The position numbers and the translations under genes were made by a program. A stretch of 64,000 bases of DNA from a virus, in the IMG/VR virus record IMGVR_UViG_3300044644_001860, positions 1 to 64,000 of that record; one strand, given 5' to 3'. This document shows positions 12,109 through 59,204 of this stretch, piece by piece. Under the pieces are notes generated by a model. That model ran no database searches. It was given only the letters and a program-made list of their open reading frames with translations, and was not told the DNA's origin. How positions within the stretch are numbered: position 1 is the stretch's first letter; every line of letters begins with the position of its first letter.

Positions 12109-13193
12109 TGAGAGGAATGGGCGCAACAGTGGACGCGGGAATAAAACCCCTGAACCCAACACTTTACGCGCTGCTGGAACACAAATTCAGCGGGAGCGTA
12201 AAGATCGCAAATCCCGGCGTGGCGGCAGCCATCGAGCGTTATCGTGATCCAGTGCACCCCGGCAGGTACGTAACCCGTAGTTCACACTGGGGCGAGTACT
12301 ACTGCGTATGCTGCCCGTTTTGCAACGACGTTGGACACAAGCTCTGGATCAATCATCGCTACGGTGCAGACGTCGACCCCGAAACGGGACGACGCTCGGA
12401 CACGTTTTTGGCCGTGTGCTATAAAAACAATTGTATCCGTACGCGGTATCAGCAGTTTGAAGATTTAGTTTTTGGTCCCGGCAAAAAACTACCAGTGCGT
12501 ATGGGTATCGCCACCGGCATCAAACCCGAAAACGCTGAATCTATTTCTCCGCCGGGCGAGATTGTTTCCTTGGTTGATCTTCCGGACTATCATCCGGCAA
12601 ACGAGTATCTACGGTCCCGAAATTTTGATCCCGCTGTTCTCGCCGAAAAATTCGGCGTCGGCGTTTGCGTAAACCCCGTGCCGGCTTACGGCATCATGCG
12701 CGGCCGAATCTACATTCCTGTGTATTCCAGCGGGCAGCTTGTTGGTTGGCAGGGACGGATCGTGACACCCCCCGACGGCAAACCGAAGTATTACACGCAA
12801 GGCAGCAAAAGCCGCGCGCTTTACAACTATGCGCAAGCGGCTCGTCAGCCGTACGTCGTTGTTGTCGAAGGCGTGCCGAGCGTGTGGCGCATTGGCGACC
12901 CTGCCGTCGCCATTTTTGGAAAAACGTTGTCGCAATGGCAGCAAAACACGATCGGCACGGCGTGGACTGGAAAACCTGTTTTTGTCGTGATAGATTTCGG
13001 CGAAGACGAGGGGCGTGCGCTTGAGCAGATTGCCATGCAGCTGTACCGGTATCCCATCCAGTTGGTTCCAGTGCAGATGCCAGACGCCCGCGACCCGGCT
13101 GATTATTCTTTGCCGGATTTTTACGAGTTGCTCCACGAGGCGGCAGCAGACATAGGCGTAGATTCATCAGTATTAAACACGAGAAACCAATGA
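12108..13193 (+). CDS. DnaG-like primase (zinc ribbon plus TOPRIM)
   Basis: 361 residues if GTG 12108 is used; ATG 12117 is an alternative. A zinc-ribbon region with CVCCPFC (residues ~66-72) and AVCYKNNC (~102-109) is followed by a catalytic region: GRIYIPVYSSGQLVGWQGR, the TOPRIM strand VVVVEGVPSVW (~249-259, catalytic Glu) and VFVVIDFGEDEG (~290). This matches short phage primases related to DnaG and the gp4 primase half. It would lay RNA primers behind the helicase encoded just upstream. Ends four bases inside the start of the polymerase gene. Confidence 0.82.
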   Translation: MRGMGATVDAGIKPLNPTLYALLEHKFSGSVKIANPGVAAAIERYRDPVHPGRYVTRSSHWGEYYCVCCPFCNDVGHKLWINHRYGADVDPETGRRSDTFLAVCYKNNCIRTRYQQFEDLVFGPGKKLPVRMGIATGIKPENAESISPPGEIVSLVDLPDYHPANEYLRSRNFDPAVLAEKFGVGVCVNPVPAYGIMRGRIYIPVYSSGQLVGWQGRIVTPPDGKPKYYTQGSKSRALYNYAQAARQPYVVVVEGVPSVWRIGDPAVAIFGKTLSQWQQNTIGTAWTGKPVFVVIDFGEDEGRALEQIAMQLYRYPIQLVPVQMPDARDPADYSLPDFYELLHEAAADIGVDSSVLNTRNQ

Positions 13194-16100
13194 GTGTAGT
13201 GTCTTTAAATCAGCGTCATACACGCTCTCTTTATGACCCTAAAAGCGCTAAGCTAACAGCAGCGCTTTTTCCGTTTTTGCCGCTCGACGCTCCGGGCATG
13301 CCGTCCGCAGGCCCGAACTTTATCGCGCATGCCAATATCTTGGGCGACACGATCGATCCGGCAAAAACGAAAAAACAAATCCCGATCGGCGAGAAGCTGA
13401 CAAACTTGTACAGAGACGCGCTGTACAACCCGCAGTTCTTTCTGCCTGTCGCTCACAAGAATGAGTTGACGGCGGTGCCGTTTCTTCCGGGACACATTCT
13501 CGGTCAAGTCGCGGACGAAAAGTTTAAATCGCTTCACGCGACTGATGACGAGTTTGGCCCTCGCCCCGCTCGCGTCATGATCGTAGGAAAGTCCCCCGGG
13601 CAGACAGAGATTCAATACCGCAACTCTTTTGGCGGTTCTGGCATGCGGCCTATGCAGCACGCTATGCAGGAGTGCGGCTTTTTGCCGGACGAGTATTTGT
13701 CGTGGTACGTAACCTTCGCCTGCAAATTTATGTCGCCGGACGCAGAGCTGACGGCTCTCCCGGCCGCGTGGCTGAAGGACTGCGCGCTGCTGCTAGAGCA
13801 AGAAATACGGCTTGTACAGCCAGACTATATTCTCTGCCTTGGCGCGGAGGCTACAAAGGCCGTGCTGCAGACAACCGGGAGCGTCACGAATCTTCTTGGC
13901 CGCGCTATAACGCGTAAGTCAAAAGATGCGGAAGGAAACGACCGCGAGATTCTTGTTGTCCCTGCCGTCAACCCGGGTTTTGTAGCGCGTAAGCCTGACG
14001 CTTACGAAGACTTTGTCGGCCAGATTCAGCGGTTTTACGACTTGGTTCACAACAAGCAGTCTGTTGAAGAAACAGTCGACCACGCCGAGATTTACACGGA
14101 AGAGACTTTACGTGAAATGGTCGATGAGATGATTGCCGACACGACGCTGAACGCGAACATCATCGCCATCGACTGCGAGTGGCACGGCGAGTTCCCCACG
14201 GAAGATGGCGCTTACTTGCGCACCATTCAGGTCTCTAACAAGGACAAGTGGGCGCGCACGATTGTCTTGCGGCATCAAGGCGGTGGAATTGCTTTTCAGC
14301 CAAATCTCGACGTAATTCGCGAACAGTTGAATCGGCTACTGAAGAGCACGCCTGATCGGCATGTCCGAGTTGGCGGGCATTTCTTTCGTGCTGACTTGCC
14401 GTGGCTTGTCCACTTCGGCGTCGATGTACGCGAGGAGTACGGTCCGGTTGATAACTCAGACGATAGAACTCGCGGGGGTTGGGACACGAGTCTGATGTAT
14501 CACGCTGTAAACGAGACGGCGCGGTATGGGTTAGACGCGTGCTCCATGCGGTTTACTTCTGCGCCTATTTACTGGGAAGAATTGGACAACTGGAACAAGA
14601 AGCGAAAAAAGAATGGCGACGCAGACGGCGGTTACGGTAATTGCCCGGGCCACATTTTGCATCCGTACGCCTCGTACGACGCCGACGTCACGCGACGGAT
14701 TATGTTGCGTTTTTACGGCACCAACGGCCGAGACGGCTTGTTAGCCAGCGACGCAAACGGCGTTGACTGCTGGTTACCGTACTGGACCGCGCATATCGCG
14801 TCGCTGGCGTTTCTGGAAATGGAAATGACCGGTCTCGTAATTGACCGCGACCGCGCTGACGAGCTGACAACCGTGTTTATGAATACGCAAGACCAGCTTT
14901 TGGACGAAATTAGGGCGGAACTGAACTGGCCTGAATTCAATCCAAAATCGCAGCCGCAACTATCTGTCGCGTTGTTCGGCGCCGACTTTGGCGCGCGGTA
15001 TGTCAACCCACCCGAGCCGCCGGCAGACGCTTCGTTATTGAGCCTGACGCCAGTCAAGACAACCGGCAAACGCCCGACCTTGTGGGCGGAACTAGGCATG
15101 CGCGGCCTTGACGCAGCTACTGCGGTGCCCAGCACCGATAAAGAAAGTCTGGGTATTCTTGGGCATCAAAACGCCACAGCTGCCAAGATTCGCGATTACA
15201 AGTTTGTGAGTCAGGTCCTGCAGTCTGTTTTACGTAAACCAGCAAAAGACGACACCGGAGAATACGAAGCCGATGAAAACGGAAATTTCGTCTATGAGAA
15301 GGGGCTGGTGGGCTGCGTTCATTCCGACGGCCGTGTTCGCACACACTTTTTTCAGACGAAAGAAACCGGCCGCGCGTCAAGCTCTCGACCGCCTTTGCAA
15401 AACCTCAGCTCCCGCCGCGAGGACGACTATCGACGTATCCTCGGCGCATCTTATCACCACCCAGTCCGGTCAGTCCTGCGGGTGCCAGAAGGGTACGTCG
15501 GGCTTGAAACGGACCTCACTGGTGCGGAACTGGCGGTCCTCGCGTGGTTGTCGCAAGATAAAAACATGATCGAACATGTTCGGCGTAATCTTCTCCCAGA
15601 GAGTCACACCGACCATTACGACATCCACTCGCGACAGGCGTGCAAGGCGTTTAATCTCCACAACATCGAACCTACAAAAACTGGCCTCGTAAAGGCCGGG
15701 AAAAAGGGTTTGCGTGTTGCCGCTAAAAACGTGAATTTCGGTATCCCATATGGCCGCGGGGCAGAAGCTATCGCGCGGCAATGCAAAGAAGAGGGTGTCG
15801 AGGTTACGCCAGCCGAGTGTCAGGCGATGATCGACGCGTACTTTGACTCGTATCCCGGCACAGCTGATTTTTTAGCGGAGTGCCGCGCACGGTCTCAAAA
15901 CCCCGGTTGGCTCGTTGGCCCATACGGCCGCTTGCGGCGCTTTTCATCTGCCGAGTTCAATCGTTCTTCTAACAGCAAGGGTACAAAAGCATACGCCGTT
16001 GTTGGAGAACAGGAACGGCAAGCGCAGAACTTCCCGATTCAAGGCGGCGTGGCTGATGCGGTGTCAATGGCATTGGCGAACTTTTACGAGTATCGCACAA

Positions 16101-16384
16101 ACCACTCTGACATTGATTACAAGATCGCGCTCCAGATTCACGACGCGATTGTTTTGTTGGTTCCCATTGAACACTCTGAACGCGTGTATAAGGAGGTTAT
16201 TCCTAAATGCATGATTGATGATGTGCCGTTTTGGCCTCGCCGATTAGATGGCAGTTCCATCCTTGTTCCCGAGCCGTATCGGTTCGGCTGCTCCCGAGAC
16301 GTCTTTGTGCACTGGGGCGAGAACATAACCCCCGAGCAAATCAGGGCTTACGGCATGGACTGGCTTTTTGATTGCAAGGACTAG
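13190..16384 (+). CDS. Uracil-DNA-glycosylase-like domain fused to family A DNA polymerase
   Basis: 1064 residues. N-terminal part (to ~290) resembles family 4/5 UDG: VGKSPGQTE keeps the PGxxE motif, and PDYILCLGAEATKAV and AVNPGFV occupy later motif positions, but the usual His is Asn and no N-terminal CxxC is present for an iron-sulfur cluster, so activity is uncertain. Next comes a 3'-5' exonuclease: AIDCEWHG (D-x-E, ~326), FFRADLPWL and YASYDAD (YxxxD). The polymerase part has motif A ETDLTGAELAVLAWLS (~774), motif B RVAAKNVNFGIPYG (~840) and motif C QIHDAIVLL (~983), where the usual HDE is HDA. UDG-polymerase fusions are known in some large phages. This is the replicative polymerase. Confidence 0.9.
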   Translation: MSVVSLNQRHTRSLYDPKSAKLTAALFPFLPLDAPGMPSAGPNFIAHANILGDTIDPAKTKKQIPIGEKLTNLYRDALYNPQFFLPVAHKNELTAVPFLPGHILGQVADEKFKSLHATDDEFGPRPARVMIVGKSPGQTEIQYRNSFGGSGMRPMQHAMQECGFLPDEYLSWYVTFACKFMSPDAELTALPAAWLKDCALLLEQEIRLVQPDYILCLGAEATKAVLQTTGSVTNLLGRAITRKSKDAEGNDREILVVPAVNPGFVARKPDAYEDFVGQIQRFYDLVHNKQSVEETVDHAEIYTEETLREMVDEMIADTTLNANIIAIDCEWHGEFPTEDGAYLRTIQVSNKDKWARTIVLRHQGGGIAFQPNLDVIREQLNRLLKSTPDRHVRVGGHFFRADLPWLVHFGVDVREEYGPVDNSDDRTRGGWDTSLMYHAVNETARYGLDACSMRFTSAPIYWEELDNWNKKRKKNGDADGGYGNCPGHILHPYASYDADVTRRIMLRFYGTNGRDGLLASDANGVDCWLPYWTAHIASLAFLEMEMTGLVIDRDRADELTTVFMNTQDQLLDEIRAELNWPEFNPKSQPQLSVALFGADFGARYVNPPEPPADASLLSLTPVKTTGKRPTLWAELGMRGLDAATAVPSTDKESLGILGHQNATAAKIRDYKFVSQVLQSVLRKPAKDDTGEYEADENGNFVYEKGLVGCVHSDGRVRTHFFQTKETGRASSSRPPLQNLSSRREDDYRRILGASYHHPVRSVLRVPEGYVGLETDLTGAELAVLAWLSQDKNMIEHVRRNLLPESHTDHYDIHSRQACKAFNLHNIEPTKTGLVKAGKKGLRVAAKNVNFGIPYGRGAEAIARQCKEEGVEVTPAECQAMIDAYFDSYPGTADFLAECRARSQNPGWLVGPYGRLRRFSSAEFNRSSNSKGTKAYAVVGEQERQAQNFPIQGGVADAVSMALANFYEYRTNHSDIDYKIALQIHDAIVLLVPIEHSERVYKEVIPKCMIDDVPFWPRRLDGSSILVPEPYRFGCSRDVFVHWGENITPEQIRAYGMDWLFDCKD

Positions 16385-46753: not shown

Positions 46754-47125
46754 ATGGCTGCACCAAATCTACAGGCTCCGACAACAGTCACTGGCAAAAC
46801 GACGTATTTGTCTTTGTCCGCAACAACTGAAACGACGCTGCTGTCAAACGCGGCGGCAAGTAACAAAGCGTTGCGTATCGCTAACTTAACAGTGGCGAAT
46901 AAATCTACTACCACAAGCGCGTCAATTGCAGCAAAAATCTACACGGCTGCGAGCGCCGGTACGGGCTATTCTTTAGCCGCTACGGTGACTGTACCTGTAG
47001 GCGCTGTTGTTATCTTAATCGGCAAAGAAAATCCGGTGTGGCTGGAAGAAGACAAGCGCATCACAGTTACAGCCGGCACAGCAAATATTCTTGACGTTGT
47101 TTGCTCGTATGAAGAGGTTGCATAA
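46754..47125 (+). CDS. Beta-sandwich-like fibre accessory protein, MAAPN family, copy 1
   Basis: 123 residues, ATG 46754 three bases after the previous stop. It is a clear paralogue of 53719-54078: both begin MAAPN, continue with a Thr-rich strand, carry ...NPVWLEEDKRI / NPLWLEEGDSI and end CSYEE/CSYEI. The predicted fold is all-beta. Each copy directly precedes a LamG-type adhesin gene, implying a structural pairing with it. Function inferred as a small virion surface protein. Confidence 0.7.
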   Translation: MAAPNLQAPTTVTGKTTYLSLSATTETTLLSNAAASNKALRIANLTVANKSTTTSASIAAKIYTAASAGTGYSLAATVTVPVGAVVILIGKENPVWLEEDKRITVTAGTANILDVVCSYEEVA

Positions 47126-49104
47126 TGCCCCGCCCGTCTGGTGGTTATGCTGCTGGGTACGTGACGCCCGTACTGAGTTCTAATGCGGCTGTGGGAGTGT
47201 GGACGCCGCGCGATGTATACGCCAATCGAGCCGCCGGTACGTGGCCTGTTGAGGGCACGGCTACGCCAGCGTTCTCGACTGTTGGCTACACGCGACTGTG
47301 GGGTTTAACCACAAAATCTTCTGGGCTGGTCACGGGTACGGCCGCAACCGACACCGGTCGGTATAACGTGAAATGGTGGGACAACACTATTACAAACCAT
47401 CTTTCCGGCGGCACATTTAGCAAAGCAGCCGCGGGTGGCTATCGCGCGTTTGAGATTTATCCGGTGCGGCAAACACTCACTTCCGCGTCTAGCAATGCGG
47501 TTTTAGCCTACAAAAACGGCTATAACGTCACTATCGACACCGGGCAGAGTAAGTTCGGCGGCGCAAGCGCTTCTTTTGGCGGCAACGGCGACTATCTCAG
47601 GACATCTGTTGCGTTTAACTACTCATCAAACTTCACGATAGAGTTTTGGTTTCGGCGATATGCCTCGGGCAGCGGTCAGGCCCCTACGTTTTACGAAGCC
47701 GGTGATATTCAAGGCGGTCAGGGCGGCTTGCATATTTATTATTTAAACGGTCAGATGCAGGTTAGCGACGGAATCGCCCCGGGCATCTCTGGCGGGTCAA
47801 TTCCGGCGTTAAACACGTGGGTACATATTGCCCTAGTGCGGAACAACGGCACAAATACGTTGTACGTTGACGGCACCAGTGTTGGAACGAGCACGCAAGA
47901 TTACGCGGCGCAGATAACAAATAACATCATCTCAATCGGCGGCGCCCCAAACTACAGTTTTTATATCCACGGCTGGATCGACGATTTTCGGCAAACGCAA
48001 GCCGCTGTTTACACAGCCAATTTTACGCCGCCTACGGCAGCCCTCACCGCGATTACTAACACAGCGCTCCTGTACAACTTTAATACAGACTTTGACTCTA
48101 TACCGTTCGGACAGTTTGACGGCTTTGACGTGTCGTCTAACAACATCACCAAGTTGCGAGGAGAAAGCCTCATAATCGACCGCGGACCGGGCTTCAATCA
48201 GTCGGTATACATGTATATCGGGTATCCGCATTATGGTTATGGGTATGTGCCACAGTGGGTTCCCGGTCCAGCAGAATTTGCAAGTTTGAAAAACAATGAT
48301 CTTGCAGCCGCTGATTTGGACCAGTTCTACACAGACCTCGGCGCCAGCAACGCCGGTGTTTTGAGCGTGCAGGGCAACCCCGGCATATCAGCCGACACGC
48401 CATCTATAGCCACAGCGAAAGGCTATACGGTGTTTGGCAGCGTGCCTCCGGCTACGACATTGCTTTTAAATTGCGAGGGGGCAAATAACGGAACCACGAT
48501 TACAGACTCTAGCGTAACAGCGCAGACTATTCGCCGCCTCCACACCGGCAGCACTGCTCCCGTTACCAGCACAACGCAGTTTAAGTATGGTTCGTCTTCG
48601 GTTCTTTTTAACGGCAACAACTGGCTGGACAACTTAAACGGCAATTCGGCTAATGTCTTGGGTACCGATAATTTTACTGTAGAAATGTGGGTGTACTTAG
48701 CGTCTCGGGGAACGGTGACGCCAATCTTTGAGTTAGACCAATACACTGCTGGTATTTTGTGGCGCGTAGGCAGCAGCGTAGATAGTCTTTGGATCAAAAA
48801 CAACCAATACAACTGGTCGCCGGCTACGCACGTTCCTTTAACGACATGGACGCACGTGGCGCTTGTCAGAGAGAACGATAATGTGCGCGTATACGCAGGT
48901 GGGGTGCAGCGGCTGTCTGTCAACTTACCTGCAAACACGTTAGTTGGCACAGCGGGCAAAATAGTTATCGGCGCGTCTACGCATGATAATTACACTACCC
49001 GTATGACCGCCAACAGTTATCTTGACGACATCCGGCTGACACGCGGACTTGCTCTTTACACGGGCACCTTCACGCCGCCGACGGCGCAACTTACGGCACT
49101 ATAA
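47125..49104 (+). CDS. Adhesin with two LamG-like (concanavalin-fold) domains
   Basis: 659 residues; start overlaps the previous stop. After an N-terminal ~110-residue region (PRPSGGYAAGYVTPVLSSNAAVG), two LamG_3-type domains are visible: one (~125-305) with TIEFWFRRYASGSG, WVHIALVRNNGTNTLYVDGT and IDDFRQTQAAVYTANFTPP; one (~440-658) with FTVEMWVYLASRG, WTHVALVRENDNVRVYAGG and LDDIRLTRGLALYTGTFTPP. Such domains bind glycans or proteins. Likely a receptor-binding tip. The last base overlaps the sulfotransferase gene start. Confidence 0.82.
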   Translation: MPRPSGGYAAGYVTPVLSSNAAVGVWTPRDVYANRAAGTWPVEGTATPAFSTVGYTRLWGLTTKSSGLVTGTAATDTGRYNVKWWDNTITNHLSGGTFSKAAAGGYRAFEIYPVRQTLTSASSNAVLAYKNGYNVTIDTGQSKFGGASASFGGNGDYLRTSVAFNYSSNFTIEFWFRRYASGSGQAPTFYEAGDIQGGQGGLHIYYLNGQMQVSDGIAPGISGGSIPALNTWVHIALVRNNGTNTLYVDGTSVGTSTQDYAAQITNNIISIGGAPNYSFYIHGWIDDFRQTQAAVYTANFTPPTAALTAITNTALLYNFNTDFDSIPFGQFDGFDVSSNNITKLRGESLIIDRGPGFNQSVYMYIGYPHYGYGYVPQWVPGPAEFASLKNNDLAAADLDQFYTDLGASNAGVLSVQGNPGISADTPSIATAKGYTVFGSVPPATTLLLNCEGANNGTTITDSSVTAQTIRRLHTGSTAPVTSTTQFKYGSSSVLFNGNNWLDNLNGNSANVLGTDNFTVEMWVYLASRGTVTPIFELDQYTAGILWRVGSSVDSLWIKNNQYNWSPATHVPLTTWTHVALVRENDNVRVYAGGVQRLSVNLPANTLVGTAGKIVIGASTHDNYTTRMTANSYLDDIRLTRGLALYTGTFTPPTAQLTAL

Positions 49105-53718: not shown

Positions 53719-54078
53719 ATGGCTGCACCAAACATTGCTGCAACGACAAACATTATCGGCAAGCTTGACACTGCGGCAGTGACAACGTCTATGCAGGTTA
53801 TGGTGTCTAATCCGGCATCTAGCGGCAAAGTCTACAAAATAAACACGCTCTTTGCTGTGAACGTTACGGGCGCTACCGCGACGGACATGCACATATCGTT
53901 ATTCAGAGGCAGCAGCGAAGTTCCGATTATTCGGTTTACAGCGGTGCCTGCCGATGCCACACTGGTTGTCATCAGCAAAGACAACCCGCTCTGGTTAGAA
54001 GAAGGCGACTCGATTAAGGCGCAAGCCGGTGCAAATGGTCGAACCGTAATTCTCTGCTCGTACGAGATTATTTCTTAA
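53719..54078 (+). CDS. Beta-sandwich-like fibre accessory protein, MAAPN family, copy 2
   Basis: 119 residues, ATG 53719 with GGAGG upstream, two bases after the collagen gene. Paralogue of 46754-47125: MAAPN start, central Thr-rich strands, NPLWLEEGDSI and CSYEI end. As with copy 1, the following gene is a long beta-rich adhesin. This points to a duplicated fibre / MAAPN / adhesin module in the genome. Confidence 0.7.
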   Translation: MAAPNIAATTNIIGKLDTAAVTTSMQVMVSNPASSGKVYKINTLFAVNVTGATATDMHISLFRGSSEVPIIRFTAVPADATLVVISKDNPLWLEEGDSIKAQAGANGRTVILCSYEIIS

Positions 54079-54088
54079 GGATTGCGTC

Positions 54089-55711
54089 ATGGGTAATCGA
54101 TACTTCGGCGGTTGGTGGCCGGAAAATTTACCTGTCTTTCCGTCATCGGGCGAGACGTCAATTCCCGGCGTGTGGCACATTGACGATGTGCATATGCTGC
54201 TTGGAGAAGGCATGACGTCGGAGATAGACCCGACCGTATACATTTACAAACGTAGCCGCGGCGGTAGCTACCCTTACATAAGCTGGCCGCGCGCCACATT
54301 CACAGTTGGCGACATTGATGACGTCACTCTCGGATGTAAATCATCTGTTGATTTTTTAGCCAGCGCAACAAAAGGCTCTTCGGCCAACTTTGGGCACGAG
54401 TTTAAATTTTATTGGGAAAAAAAAGCGCCGGGTAGCAGTACGTGGGAGCCGTACTCAAGCCCACTTGATCTGATCACAAACAAAATCAAGCTCGGTCAAG
54501 AAGTGTTTACGACCGACACTAATGTTTTTCGCGGGTACATGGCGAATTTTCGTTACAGCTCGACTGCCCGGTATATGACCGGTTCAAACGACACGACGAT
54601 CACCGTAGTGGCGGACCCGGTGTTTGACGGCAATACGCTTGCCCTGCTGAAATTTAATACGAGTTCTACAACGCCGAGTGTTCCGTGGACGTCATTAGAC
54701 CCGGCCCCAACACCATTTGTGCAAAGTTTTTCAACGGTCACAGACGGTGATTTACCGGGGCAGCAGTACGCGGCTTACACATACGCCGGTTTATACACGC
54801 TGTCACATAATACGGGCTTTACACGAAACGACGGCGACTTTTGTGTTGAGTTGTATTTCAGGACTATAGACAACTTAAACTGGGCTTACTCGAACGATCA
54901 ATACGCCACGCTCGTTGACATGCGTGCTGGAAATACCACAACCGGACCGATCAACGTCAACGCAATAGCTATAACATTATCAAAGCTAAACAAAGTGCAG
55001 GTCCGCCGCGGTGATGCGGTTATTATTGAAAGTGACACGTCGGTCGCAAGCAACACAATCAACCTTGAAAACTCGTGGTATCACGTAATTCTCAACAGCA
55101 AAGATGGCGTCTTGCGCTTATACCTGCGGCCAATTAGCGACCCAAATCGGGCCGCTACGCTTGTCGGCGAGCCGTACGCCGGCGAACATATTAAAAGACT
55201 TCGTTTAACTGACCTCACAAGCGCCGACGACGATACGCAGTTTCGTGTGCGGGTTACATACGGCGCGCTACGAGAAGCGTACAGCGAGCCAGCAACGCTA
55301 TCAGCGAATGCCCCCGACATTACGTGGAACGATCCGGATGGCGGCCCGGCACCGTACTTTACTGTATCGGGAAATTATTTTCCGCATCTGCTTGGTGCAA
55401 ACGCGCTTCCAAACCCCGGAAATTTTACAATAAGCTCGGGTGTCGATCCCGGACCCGGGTTTGCCAATAATCAGTTAGATTTCAGGTGGGAATTCGCTAC
55501 CGAGCGGCTTGACGGGACAGCCATCGAGTTCGACGACGCCGCAACGATACTGGCGTGGAACACGTTTGCCGGTGAAACAGACACAAGTTTTTCTTACAAC
55601 CTTGTTTGGGCTGGCTCGGGTAACTACTTTGCTTTGCGCGCAGTAGCTATTTGCGGACAGGTCGCCACTGTGTATAGCCCCGTGGCATTTATCGAAAGAG
55701 CCGAAACCTGA
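54089..55711 (+). CDS. Beta-rich virion adhesin, partly LamG-like
   Basis: 540 residues, ATG 54089 with AAGGA upstream. After an N-terminal ~115-residue part, the middle (~185-335) has LamG-like features: NTLALLKFNTSST, DFCVELYFRTIDNLNW and SWYHVILNSKDGVLRLYLRP. The C-terminal ~170 residues look like Ig- or fibronectin-type strands (TWNDPDGGPAPYFTVSGNYF, FSYNLVWAGSGNYFALRAVAICG). An exposed tail or head adhesin is likely. It parallels the LamG gene at 47125 in position after a MAAPN gene. Confidence 0.68.
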   Translation: MGNRYFGGWWPENLPVFPSSGETSIPGVWHIDDVHMLLGEGMTSEIDPTVYIYKRSRGGSYPYISWPRATFTVGDIDDVTLGCKSSVDFLASATKGSSANFGHEFKFYWEKKAPGSSTWEPYSSPLDLITNKIKLGQEVFTTDTNVFRGYMANFRYSSTARYMTGSNDTTITVVADPVFDGNTLALLKFNTSSTTPSVPWTSLDPAPTPFVQSFSTVTDGDLPGQQYAAYTYAGLYTLSHNTGFTRNDGDFCVELYFRTIDNLNWAYSNDQYATLVDMRAGNTTTGPINVNAIAITLSKLNKVQVRRGDAVIIESDTSVASNTINLENSWYHVILNSKDGVLRLYLRPISDPNRAATLVGEPYAGEHIKRLRLTDLTSADDDTQFRVRVTYGALREAYSEPATLSANAPDITWNDPDGGPAPYFTVSGNYFPHLLGANALPNPGNFTISSGVDPGPGFANNQLDFRWEFATERLDGTAIEFDDAATILAWNTFAGETDTSFSYNLVWAGSGNYFALRAVAICGQVATVYSPVAFIERAET

Positions 55712-55713
55712 TC

Positions 55714-56244
55714 ATGCGCGTACCCATCAATCAGTTAACGCTACCCGAACAAGCAGCGGCGTACAATCCAGAATTTAAACGCGAGTGCATGCGTACCGGG
55801 AATCCCGTGTACGACAAAAATCGAAACATCGTCGCTTTAGACATTGACCGCATTCCGCTGCAGCGGGCATTTCACAAATGCATGATGCGGCACATGGGCT
55901 ACACCGGCGCAAAGATACCCCCGATGTCAATTGAAATGCCGCTGCCCAAAGAAATGCCGCCTCCACCTGTAGGCGCGTTAGACGCCGTCAAAAAAACAGG
56001 TGTCGGGACAGAGTTAAAAACTGTGTTAAATCAATACGGCTTTGTGCTCTCTCCAATTTACGACATTCTCATGTACAAGTTAAATGACAAGTCGATAACC
56101 GACTGCGCACAAAATATTGAAGGCATGCTAGACGTACTGGAAGACGAAGCATATCGCAACAAGGTAACCTTCGACCGGGACAAGACTGAGATCATGATCC
56201 GGCTCGCAATTCGTAACGCACGGAAAAATTCAAATGGCAGCTAG
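55714..56244 (+). CDS. Hypothetical protein before Trp/Gly-rich gene
   Basis: 176 residues, ATG 55714 two bases after the previous stop. N-terminal RVPINQLTLPEQAAAYNPEFKRECMRTG, a proline-methionine linker (PMSIEMPLPKEMPPPPVG) and a helical C-terminus (IEGMLDVLEDEAYRNKVTF, IMIRLAIRNARKN). No family recognised. Overlaps the next gene start by eleven bases. Confidence 0.6.
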   Translation: MRVPINQLTLPEQAAAYNPEFKRECMRTGNPVYDKNRNIVALDIDRIPLQRAFHKCMMRHMGYTGAKIPPMSIEMPLPKEMPPPPVGALDAVKKTGVGTELKTVLNQYGFVLSPIYDILMYKLNDKSITDCAQNIEGMLDVLEDEAYRNKVTFDRDKTEIMIRLAIRNARKNSNGS

Positions 56245-57625
56245 TGGCGCGTCTGGACCATCTTCTGGTTTGCTCACGAAGGGCAGCGCTTTGTTTTTGA
56301 CAAACTGCCGCGACAAAAAACCTATTTTCGGCCCCAAGGACGATCCTTGCAGTAAAACAGTCAACGAAGATTGTTGCGGCTGCGGCAAGAACCAGTGCGA
56401 GTGCGCGAACCCCACGTGCATGTTTAGTTATCCGGGAAACTCCTACACCGAGTGGGAAGACACCGAAACTTATCAGCAGCTATTTCTGTGCGATGCTGAG
56501 AACACCAGCGGCTACGGCATGACGGTTTTTTCTGGCGGCGTTAACAGCTGGTGGGGCTACTACGGCGGCTGGTGGGGCGGCTACGGATGGAACTGGTGGT
56601 GGGGCGGCGGATATTGGGGCGGCTGGGGTTGGGGCTGGGGTTGGGGCTGGGGCGGCGGATGGTATTGGGGTTGGGGAGGCCTTGCCCCTAACGAAGAAAA
56701 CAAATCGTGCACGCCGGTAATTCGCTGGAAAGAAGATTTTTACCGCAAATGGTTTTGCGGCTCAGAGTGTTATGTCTACATGTCGTGGGCCTACGATAGC
56801 TGCTCGACACCGTGGGGCGAGTATGAGGTCGTGGAAGCAGGCGAGGCGTGCAACAACAGATTTCGTGGTTGCTGCGCTAGCGCGCCTTCTAATCCGTGCG
56901 ACTGCGTGTCTAATTGTTATGGCTGCGGTCCCTGCGGCGGCTCGTGGTACGGCTGGGGCTGGGGCGGCGGCTATTGGGGCGGCGGATGGTGGGGTTGGGG
57001 TGGTAATACTTTTGGCTGTCATTGTTACGAAAACACGGGCGAAAAAGAAGAAGGGCGCTGGGTGGATTGTTCGTCAGGTTGCGGCAGCGGGTGTCCTCCG
57101 TGCTGGTATGGGTACGTGGGCGGTTATGACATTTGGCAGGCTAAATACGGTTCGTGCTACAAGGGCAGCACAAATTCAAGTGTAGCGCGGCTGATCATGT
57201 GGGACTGCGAGTCGGGCACATGGAAAAACGTCACAGAAGAAGCGTATGAAATTGTGCCCGGCACCGCCGCGGGCCCGGGTCAGTGGATAGGTTTTTTCAA
57301 AACAACCACCGGCCCTGACGATGAAGGCTTTTACACCTGCGAAATGGCGCCGGAAGAAGAATGGGGCGGGCGCTGGAAAATGGAAATTGCCGACGGAGGT
57401 ATTAAAACCTCGAATCAATATCGCCCGGGCTACTATACATGCGAGCAATGCGGCTCTAACCCAGATTGTAATCCGTACTGGGGCGACAATCCGTGCGGCT
57501 ACTGTTGCGGAGACTGCCAGCCTATTACGTACTGCGCGTGGCCTGCAGAGTGTTCGCCGCGGGTCAAAGAAATTTCCGAATATCCTGTTACGTGCCCCGA
57601 AGAACCAAGCGGCCCTGATTGTTAG
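56234..57625 (+). CDS. Trp/Gly-rich and Cys-rich protein of unknown type
   Basis: 463 residues, ATG 56234. Three features alternate. Cysteine-rich stretches such as EDCCGCGKNQCECANPTC (~46-62) and CDCVSNCYGCGPC (~222-234). Two Gly/Trp/Tyr blocks, residues ~103-149 and ~235-257, in which nearly every residue is G, W or Y, with WGWGWGWGWG near 131-140. A C-terminal half of ordinary composition with more cysteines (CEQCGSNPDC, CGYCCGDC). About 40 cysteines in all suggest heavy disulfide or metal binding. Possibly a virion surface or adhesive protein given its position in the fibre block. No known family fits. Confidence 0.7.
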   Translation: MAASGASGPSSGLLTKGSALFLTNCRDKKPIFGPKDDPCSKTVNEDCCGCGKNQCECANPTCMFSYPGNSYTEWEDTETYQQLFLCDAENTSGYGMTVFSGGVNSWWGYYGGWWGGYGWNWWWGGGYWGGWGWGWGWGWGGGWYWGWGGLAPNEENKSCTPVIRWKEDFYRKWFCGSECYVYMSWAYDSCSTPWGEYEVVEAGEACNNRFRGCCASAPSNPCDCVSNCYGCGPCGGSWYGWGWGGGYWGGGWWGWGGNTFGCHCYENTGEKEEGRWVDCSSGCGSGCPPCWYGYVGGYDIWQAKYGSCYKGSTNSSVARLIMWDCESGTWKNVTEEAYEIVPGTAAGPGQWIGFFKTTTGPDDEGFYTCEMAPEEEWGGRWKMEIADGGIKTSNQYRPGYYTCEQCGSNPDCNPYWGDNPCGYCCGDCQPITYCAWPAECSPRVKEISEYPVTCPEEPSGPDC

Positions 57626-57634
57626 TGTGCAACT

Positions 57635-58495
57635 ATGCCTGACTGCAACTATTCAGCGTGCAATCCCTGTGGCCCGATGCCGTCGTGGAAAGACCCGCCA
57701 GCAGACAAAAGCGTTGACTGCGAAGATTTAACAGAAGAAGATACGGGCGAAGAGCCTGAGCTAGAGTACGACAACTACGTGACTGATCCGGAAGATTGCC
57801 ACATTGAAGGTAGCGTCACACCAGAGGTCACTGAATCATACGGCCCGTGTGGCGGTCAAATCATCAAAATTTGGAAGTTCGAAGAAGACTGCGCAAAGGC
57901 CACCAATCCAAACGACCGGAAAATGGAGCATGTGCAAATCATTACGGTTAATTACTCAGATAATCCTGAGTGGGTAGAGCCCCCAGCAGATTTGGAACTT
58001 GGGTGTGTTGCTGGGCTGGAGTACATTGAAGACGGTCCGCAAGAATTGTCGTATGAGAACCACGCGGAGGGCGATGTAGACGGTTGTCGGGTATCTGGCA
58101 CGGCGACTGGCTACATTTGCGCGGCTGTCGGGTACTGCTCCGGCATGATCACTCAAACGTGGACTGCCGACGACGAGTGCCGGCGTGTAATTGATCATAC
58201 GCAAATTGTTACGACGACGGCTGCCACGCAAGCTTCGTGGGTAAACCCGCCGCCTTCTCAGGGCATGACGTGCACGCAGGCGTATTTAACAACGCTGCAG
58301 CCATTGTCGGCGTTTCGGTTGCAGTACAAAAACAACTTGCGCGGGCCGTGCAAAATCGAAGGCTACATGGAGCCAAGAATCGAGGTAAATGTGCAGAATT
58401 GTACGGGAACTATTACGCGGACATGGGAATTTACCGACCTTTGCCTGCGGACAATTACGCATGTGCAGGTGCTGACCGTCACTCCCGACGTTTGA
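57635..58495 (+). CDS. Adhesin-like protein with three HYR-like repeats
   Basis: 286 residues, ATG 57635. After a Cys-rich start (CNYSACNPCG) three repeats of ~75 residues follow, each with Y-x-N, a C...G pair, a C-x-G-x-I segment ending in a W (IIKIWKFEEDC, MITQTWTADDEC, TITRTWEFTDLC) and a closing Q-I/V-x-T-V strand. This is the pattern of HYR-type immunoglobulin-like repeats of bacterial surface adhesins, with conserved cysteines probably paired. It belongs with the preceding Cys-rich protein, ten bases away, and would be exposed on the virion. Confidence 0.7.
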   Translation: MPDCNYSACNPCGPMPSWKDPPADKSVDCEDLTEEDTGEEPELEYDNYVTDPEDCHIEGSVTPEVTESYGPCGGQIIKIWKFEEDCAKATNPNDRKMEHVQIITVNYSDNPEWVEPPADLELGCVAGLEYIEDGPQELSYENHAEGDVDGCRVSGTATGYICAAVGYCSGMITQTWTADDECRRVIDHTQIVTTTAATQASWVNPPPSQGMTCTQAYLTTLQPLSAFRLQYKNNLRGPCKIEGYMEPRIEVNVQNCTGTITRTWEFTDLCLRTITHVQVLTVTPDV

Positions 58496-58505
58496 TTTTG
58501 ATTGC

Positions 58506-58534
58506 TTGATGCTGCACTTGCTGTCGGCTATGAT
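58506..58534 (+). promoter_or_regulatory. Sigma-70-like promoter TTGATG-N17-TATGAT
   Basis: TTGATG (58506-58511), 17 bases, TATGAT (58529-58534). Expected start near 58541, a short leader before the ribosome site GGAG and GTG 58560 of the thymidine kinase gene. It begins a unit after the fibre block. Confidence 0.65.
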
Positions 58535-58559
58535 GCCCGCGAACAAGCGGAGCGCAAGC

Positions 58560-59204
58560 GTGGCAAAACTCTATTTCCGGCACGGCACTGTAGGCAGCGC
58601 AAAGACGTTAAATCTTCTTGCTGTAGCGCACAACTACCGACAGCAAGGCAAACAAGTTCTGCTGCTCAAGCCGGAGTTTGACACGCGCTTCGGCGTTGGG
58701 GTGATTCAGACCCGGGCTGGTATTTCTATGCCGGCTGACGTCATTGTGGGTGACACGCTTAAAGTGCCAGATTTGACACATATCGTGTGTATTCTGGTGG
58801 ATGAGTGCCAGTTCTTGCACCATACGCATATCGACCGTCTGCGGGAGATTACGAACACTCACGATATCCCTGTCATCTGCTACGGCCTGCGCACAGACTT
58901 CCGCACGAACCTGTTTCCAGCCGCCCGACGCTTATTTGAACTGGCTGATAGCATTGAAGAGGTCAAAACCACGTGCAATTACTGCTTGCGAAAAGCCATC
59001 TTCAACCTTAAACTACTCGACGGTAAGCCAACCCTCAGCGGGCCATCTGCAGAATTAGGCTGTGAAGAAAAATACCTTCCTGTCTGTGCGGACTGTTTTG
59101 ATGAACACCATCTTAATGCCGGCAATGTTAGTAGCTGGAACTCTACTGTTAGCCGACGCAGCGCCTGTAACTGCGGAAGCGGCAGTTGCTGCTGTAAAAA
59201 GTGA
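58560..59204 (+). CDS. tdk: Thymidine kinase
   Basis: 214 residues from GTG 58560 (GGAG eight bases upstream; the frame is open further but enters the promoter). P-loop LYFRHGTVGSAKTLNLL (residues ~4-20), Walker B VDECQFLHH, catalytic-lasso region CYGLRTDFRTNLFPAARRLFELAD and a zinc site with CNYC...CADC. This matches type II thymidine kinases, which phosphorylate thymidine with ATP. The P-loop reads GSAK rather than GSGK, a variant to note. An extended Cys-rich end (CNCGSGSCCCKK) is unusual. With Tmk it completes the thymidine to dTDP route. Confidence 0.85.
   Translation: MAKLYFRHGTVGSAKTLNLLAVAHNYRQQGKQVLLLKPEFDTRFGVGVIQTRAGISMPADVIVGDTLKVPDLTHIVCILVDECQFLHHTHIDRLREITNTHDIPVICYGLRTDFRTNLFPAARRLFELADSIEEVKTTCNYCLRKAIFNLKLLDGKPTLSGPSAELGCEEKYLPVCADCFDEHHLNAGNVSSWNSTVSRRSACNCGSGSCCCKK

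Follow-up and report, generated by a model that had tools for sequence, protein, structure and literature searches.

We analysed a 64,000-nucleotide stretch of viral DNA (positions 1 to 64,000 of IMG/VR record IMGVR_UViG_3300044644_001860; hereafter the window), near the right end of which lies a gene for a protein composed of cysteine clusters and of blocks made almost entirely of glycine, tryptophan and tyrosine (the Trp/Gly/Cys protein). Its start overlaps by 11 bases the preceding gene (55714-56244), whose product belongs to a family for which we coined the name GTELK. Downstream, nine bases separate its stop codon from the ATG of a gene for a protein with HYR-like repeats (57635-58495), which is followed by a thymidine kinase gene (Table 1). 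A sequence-only reading of this DNA had singled out the unusual blocks, the cysteine clusters and the closeness of the downstream gene, all of which hold up; it passed over 55714-56244 just upstream, which turned out to be the most informative neighbour.

Composition, reading frame and assembly of the gene

The protein contains 41 Cys, 39 Trp, 80 Gly, 32 Tyr and a single His. Block 1 consists of 21 G, 17 W, 5 Y and three other residues, and block 2 of 13 G, 7 W, 2 Y and two others. The longest run of G, W and Y alone extends over 29 residues, compared with a mean of 5.1 and at most 13 when the protein was shuffled 10,000 times, which rules out a chance effect of composition. When all six frames of the window were read, G/W/Y runs of at least eight residues occurred three times, always inside this open reading frame (ORF). 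Alignments of the protein to itself gave internal repeats at chance level.

A wrong reading frame is ruled out by codon usage both for the whole ORF (score per codon 0.109, with all five other frames at -0.083 or below) and for block 1 by itself (0.162, as against -0.047 or lower). Misassembly is unlikely because a second IMG/VR contig (IMGVR_UViG_3300043468_001166) agrees with the window base for base across the gene, at 100% identity throughout the 13,389 bases that were compared. The same virus is represented by a third contig (IMGVR_UViG_3300042317_001568; 205,010 bases), both ends of which lie inside block 1 and overlap by about 15 bases; the block 1 DNA at its break is GGGGTTGGGGCTGGGGTTGGGG, and the broken end carries poly-G substitutions. 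Since both ends fall within block 1 and overlap, they suggest that the genome, of ~205 kb, is circular or circularly permuted and was split by the assembler at the G-rich block. Contigs of 203-205 kb in four relatives are consistent with this size.

Table 1 Features of the fibre cassette and its right-hand edge in the window
Feature	Position	Strand	Remarks
Collagen-like tail fibre protein, 696 residues	51626..53716	+	Pfam Collagen, E 2.7e-81; PHROG tail fibre
119-residue protein, about one third identical to window ORF 46754-47125	53719..54078	+	a relative's protein identical to 46754, compared with 53719: 32.5%, E 7e-16
540-residue protein, laminin-G-like by eye only	54089..55711	+	no library match
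GTELK-family protein, 176 residues	55714..56244	+	helical C-terminal domain in model; lacks the family CxC motif
Trp/Gly/Cys protein, 463 residues, 41 Cys	56234..57625	+	ATG to TAG; codon usage; identical in second contig
Block 1, residues 104-149, 43 of 46 being G, W or Y, with a WGWGWGWGWG stretch	56543..56680	+	
G-quadruplex motif in block 1, the only one found in the window (both strands searched)	56616..56646	+ (coding strand)	
Block 2, residues 235-258, 22 of 24 being G, W or Y	56936..57007	+	
HYR-like protein, 286 residues, three repeats with four aligned Cys each	57635..58495	+	
Thymidine kinase	58506..59204	+	conserved right-hand edge of the variable cassette

A family paired with cysteine-rich proteins

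The GTELK proteins, small proteins of environmental phages (L232-L351, plus window 55714-56244), share a C-terminal domain with the consensus GPGTELKKLL ... CSCNARA ... WC ... GWLREEAxKRxLPF. A DNA pattern for its best-conserved piece returned at least 120 viral-contig stretches, in 71 of which the domain was recognised by ORF calling and motif; the CxC motif is present in the C-terminal domain of all 71. Dereplication of these 71 at 75% identity left 35, and removal of the eight that lacked a qualifying upstream gene left 27. At 19 of these 27 loci the gene directly upstream of GTELK encodes a protein of more than 5% Cys; among other ORFs, 8 of 181 do (Fisher p 9e-15, with ORFs taken to be independent). 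At one locus (L347:431-1855) a Cys-rich protein and the GTELK domain are naturally fused in a single ORF of 474 residues. The Cys-rich partners differ greatly from one another; many, the fused one included, start with a module resembling MSPLYxNNGKLLxxNGxLAxxxxCCCG (the NGKLL module). A C-terminal NPLP or NPFP is found in 10 of the 49 Cys-rich proteins upstream of GTELK (NPLP at L250, L253, L272, L278, L335, L351 and others), compared with 2 of 342 other ORFs, and the recurring NPLP could be a recognition tag. A tape-measure gene lies two same-strand genes before the Cys-rich gene at L277, and a tail-fibre-like gene further downstream at L241.

Six of 34 records of the window's virus group matched the GTELK profile; one of the six is the same virus, and two of the other five already had sequences in the profile. 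G029 and G030, both new to it, have Cys-rich genes upstream of GTELK: those of G029 encode 962, 667 and 830 residues with 54, 38 and 65 Cys, with one gene of 203 residues between the last and GTELK, and that of G030 encodes 124 residues with nine Cys and ends in NPLP. The window's own 55714-56244 matches the profile at E 3.6e-29 in the same virus, its sequence being among the profile's 46 rows, and as the sole query it matched 3 of 14 relatives (E 2.7e-8 to 8.6e-5). A GTELK fold model with a mean predicted local distance difference test score (pLDDT) of 75 had no PDB match at E <= 0.001 and, as its best viral match, an uncharacterised protein of an uncultured phage (E 0.055); one member gave nothing against INPHARED and PLSDB; and the members compared with Pfam, PHROGs and NCBIfam gave no convincing match.

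The thymidine kinase position in related viruses

The thymidine kinase is present in 14 related records, 8 from a set of 14 and 6 from a set of 18, and the region upstream of it was read in 12 of these relatives (not in G027 and G028). None of the 12 has the Trp/Gly/Cys gene; in six, another protein of more than 5% Cys is encoded no more than two genes away from thymidine kinase. In G002 and G016 a protein of 1738/1740 residues with 235/241 Cys is followed by a homologue of window ORF 55714 and then by thymidine kinase. These giant proteins (L178:1948-7167, minus strand, 1740 residues and 241 Cys; L171:2059-7272, minus strand, 1738 residues and 235 Cys) are built of repeats and end in NPLP; the 1740-residue one has no Pfam or PHROG match. 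At this place G003, G015, G013 and G009 encode proteins of 150-218 residues with 10-14 Cys, and G006 and G020 small proteins with fewer Cys (seven and five); a Cys-rich gene on the same strand is missing directly there in G004 and G026. In G024 and G029 the fibre cassette is absent at thymidine kinase; the GTELK/Cys-rich cassette of G029 lies far off, with thymidine kinase at 29 kb and GTELK at 111 kb. Because the contents of the slot differ across the 12 relatives viewed, genes are evidently exchanged at the cassette's right end, and in half of these relatives Cys-rich proteins are what is exchanged. The recurrence of other Cys-rich proteins in the same place supports in part the surface role that the sequence-only reading had proposed.

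In the two relatives without a fibre cassette at this place (L226:17793-18380 and, in reverse, L228 17853-18434), thymidine kinase directly follows the core genes.

Distribution of the Trp/Gly/Cys protein

The protein has no match in Pfam, PHROGs, NCBIfam or PDB sequences, in keeping with the earlier remark that no phage or bacterial family of this composition is known, and none among isolate phages or plasmids. Six peptide patterns, which reach close relatives only, gave no match in GTDB and in viral contigs found just copies of the same virus. It is absent from all 32 related virus records (14 plus 18, two same-virus records left out), of which nine exceed 190 kb and many others are fragments; in the 18-record search no genome matched, and the same query did match in the 14-record search. 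On conservation in relatives, by which the sequence-only reading had said its proposal should be judged, the protein itself is thus without support; this limits the claim and does not abolish it, because the slot and the neighbour gene are partly conserved. In the literature covered, with subscription journals and preprints mostly outside its scope and GTELK not a name that it could contain, no paper was recognised as describing the protein or its cassette.

A first scan of viral contigs for WG alternation returned at least 120 stretches and 119 open frames with at least four WG; among those of at least 80 residues, by eye most look out of frame or antisense. A second pattern returned 34 stretches, comprising three loci of the same virus, several short WGGGYWG motifs and one G/W-rich segment. 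Various other viral ORFs, whose proteins look fibre-like by eye, contain the short motifs. The G/W-rich segment (L364, on the 225-kb contig IMGVR_UViG_3300020473_000013 of another large phage) spans 75 residues, of which 40 are G and 10 are W; it belongs to a protein that has no Cys clusters and whose ORF runs past the end of the locus. G/W-rich sequence by itself is not unique; its combination with 41 Cys is unique within the ORFs examined, as the Trp/Gly/Cys protein alone reaches both 5% Cys and 5% Trp among 970 ORFs of at least 100 residues from the window and the phage loci gathered.

The virus and the remaining cassette genes

The replication genes of the window include a family A DNA polymerase with a uracil-DNA-glycosylase domain (fused to it at 13190-16384), a DnaB-type helicase, a primase and a UvsX-like recombinase. 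They are followed by a module that is kept in relatives and has no PHROG matches, presumably the structural genes, and then by collagen-like, laminin-G and other fibre- or baseplate-type genes upstream of the Trp/Gly/Cys gene; these tail-type matches bear out the fibre-cassette setting. Window genes at 20-34 kb are kept in relatives and those at 35-58.5 kb are mosaic. Two adjacent fibre-region proteins (window 46754-49104) are 100% identical to those of a relative (L175:4011-6361) that otherwise differs greatly from the window in its collagen-like and later genes, an identity that points to recent exchange of tail genes.

Of the 35 loci that a DNA polymerase profile retrieved from viral contigs, two are this virus, one is 23% identical (L218, left out of the relatives) and the rest are 58-70% identical. 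No close isolate emerged, as all 1622 matching phage records lie below 60% identity to the polymerase, with the best 20 places listed at 23-26%, and the profile found nothing in the GTDB scan.

The downstream protein had been described as three HYR-like immunoglobulin repeats with conserved cysteines. Three repeats with four cysteines each, as in the domains of Pfam HYR_4C (PF23237), are indeed present, a likeness that concerns this neighbour and not the Trp/Gly/Cys protein. The whole protein scores 24.6 bits against HYR_4C (E 2.9e-5), under the cut-off of 27, and only one of the three repeats matches when scanned singly (E 2e-5), so that 'HYR-like' is a fair but borderline label. The gene was found in none of the 14 related records in which it was sought, and its protein has no relative among 1129 gathered ORFs.

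Discussion

The reading that we favour, with moderate confidence, is that the Trp/Gly/Cys protein is a virion tail or fibre protein of a host-contact cassette in a tailed phage of ~205 kb, made together with the GTELK and HYR-like proteins. A tail or host-contact role is probable because the gene sits where relatives often keep other fast-changing Cys-rich proteins. The gene, its isolation, its position in the cassette and the association of Cys-rich genes with GTELK elsewhere are observed; from the cassette position we infer presence in the virion, and host contact, strand geometry, disulfides and the partner role of GTELK would follow a scheme such as this. Encoded at the distal end of the tail-fibre cassette and co-made with the upstream GTELK and downstream HYR-like proteins, the protein would fill an interchangeable slot that in relatives is often taken by Cys-rich proteins of other, unrelated kinds, which presumably touch the host. 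Its Cys clusters would lock small domains, either by disulfides formed after release or as metal sites, and the G/W/Y blocks would form an extended aromatic-glycine segment. The alternating WG stretch, if a beta-strand, would carry Trp and Gly on opposite faces and could stack on glycans or on another protein or strip. The GTELK protein would serve as assembly partner.

Several findings weigh against this reading. Half of the 12 relatives viewed have no protein of more than 5% Cys beside thymidine kinase, and eight of the ten neighbour proteins scanned for tail context gave no tail match. The Trp/Gly/Cys gene lies directly downstream of GTELK, the reverse of the usual order; a gene of more than 5% Cys was found downstream of GTELK at none of the 16 dereplicated loci with a qualifying gene there. 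In the window the GTELK copy has diverged (17-27% identity to the remaining 45 rows of the profile) and has lost the CxC, with SPIYDI where that motif is expected. A profile of the N-terminal NGKLL...CCC module, built from 25 segments of which a few are noise, did not return the Trp/Gly/Cys protein at E <= 1000, and the protein ends in PSGPDC instead of the optional NPLP/NPFP. Searched whole or masked with phmmer against the 1129 gathered ORFs, it found nothing. Its C-terminal part resembles the 1738/1740-residue proteins of G002 and G016 by eye (VT.EA, P[VI]TC), a homology that we rejected as alignments were at chance level with Cys masked or not. A single-sequence structure model was meaningless (pLDDT 34) and was not used.

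Like the GTELK-linked slot proteins, which are Cys-rich and hypervariable, the Trp/Gly/Cys protein is Cys-rich (41 of 463 residues, above the 5% by which they are recognised) and stands beside GTELK; it differs in lacking their NGKLL...CCC start and NPLP end, in following GTELK and in its Trp/Gly blocks, of which there are none among the gathered slot proteins. The profile result rules out membership in the NGKLL family. Given the reversed order, a GTELK copy without CxC and a protein without the N-terminal module and NPLP, we do not file it with the slot proteins, and regard it as having a comparable place and, probably, a comparable job.

The blocks might instead be mere spacers, low-complexity sequence arising by replication slippage of a G-rich 12-base unit and tolerated in a structural protein without any binding role. 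We consider this possible though unlikely. Block 1 holds both a perfect 12-base tandem repeat of 2.7 copies (56621-56652) and the sole G-quadruplex motif found in the window, runs of poly-Gly (31 G in L326) or poly-Ser take the place of such blocks in other Cys-rich proteins of cassettes, and the segment of L364 shows G/W-rich sequence occurring away from Cys clusters. Trp is costly, however, and poly-Gly would be enough for a spacer. Moreover, the two separate blocks have WGGGYWGG in common, with Gly and Tyr codons mixed, which argues that most of their composition is not simple recent DNA expansion.

A further alternative is that the Cys clusters are metal sites, binding zinc or iron-sulfur, in an intracellular assembly scaffold and not in a disulfide-locked surface. 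Phage tails are assembled in the reducing cytosol, no signal peptide is evident by eye, and the CC, CxC and CxxC spacings occur three, four and seven times. We nevertheless find it doubtful, since 41 Cys are accompanied by one His and no Pfam metal domain matched. The virus also encodes a thioredoxin-type match, barely above its cut-off (25.3 vs 23.5 bits), which hints at thiol handling and fits either redox direction; a search for sulfhydryl oxidase gave no match here, and none in control genomes either. That the protein is no virion component at all, and is instead an effector, secreted or released and produced along with the late genes, is improbable: its placement in the particle is indeed a deduction and the neighbouring thymidine kinase is non-structural, but it shares strand and tight spacing with the fibre cassette, and the comparable Cys-rich gene in L277 comes after a tape-measure gene.

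The favoured reading of a tail or fibre protein can be carried further, more speculatively. We put forward only as a tentative idea, which we do not expect to hold in full, that environmental tailed phages share a so far undescribed two-gene device, consisting of a hypervariable, heavily cross-linked Cys-rich host-contact protein and a small, dedicated GTELK partner that folds, loads or caps it, and that in the window this device has been rebuilt, with the Trp/Gly/Cys and HYR-like proteins replacing the usual gene, into a disulfide-set aromatic adhesive like the matrix proteins of hair or eggshell. In uncultivated phages, rapid evolution puts the receptor-binding parts beyond the reach of homology searches and so makes them hard to recognise. 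If GTELK does mark their position, many unknown host-contact proteins could be picked from metagenomes with one profile, and if the rest is also true, the Trp/Gly/Cys protein would be a new genetically encoded aromatic/disulfide material.

Among known systems, the distal adhesin gp38 of T-even-type tail fibres (phages S16 and PP01) combines glycine-rich motifs with hypervariable receptor loops and resembles the Trp/Gly/Cys protein in having glycine-rich motifs in a proposed distal host-contact protein (PMC12892980). The glycine-rich parts of gp38 are poly-glycine II helices, whereas the Trp/Gly/Cys protein alternates Gly with Trp or Tyr, has 41 Cys and matches no PDB chain in sequence. The keratin-associated proteins of hair have a cross-linking role. 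They comprise high-cysteine and high glycine-tyrosine groups, and the likeness is one of Cys-rich and Gly/aromatic-rich building material, by analogy only (PMC2528016). They are mammalian, form two separate protein groups and use Tyr, not Trp; we claim no homology to them or to gp38. The Trp/Gly/Cys protein would then be something known in kind, a phage host-contact protein in a variable fibre cassette, and the pairing of GTELK with Cys-rich proteins the wider and perhaps more useful finding.

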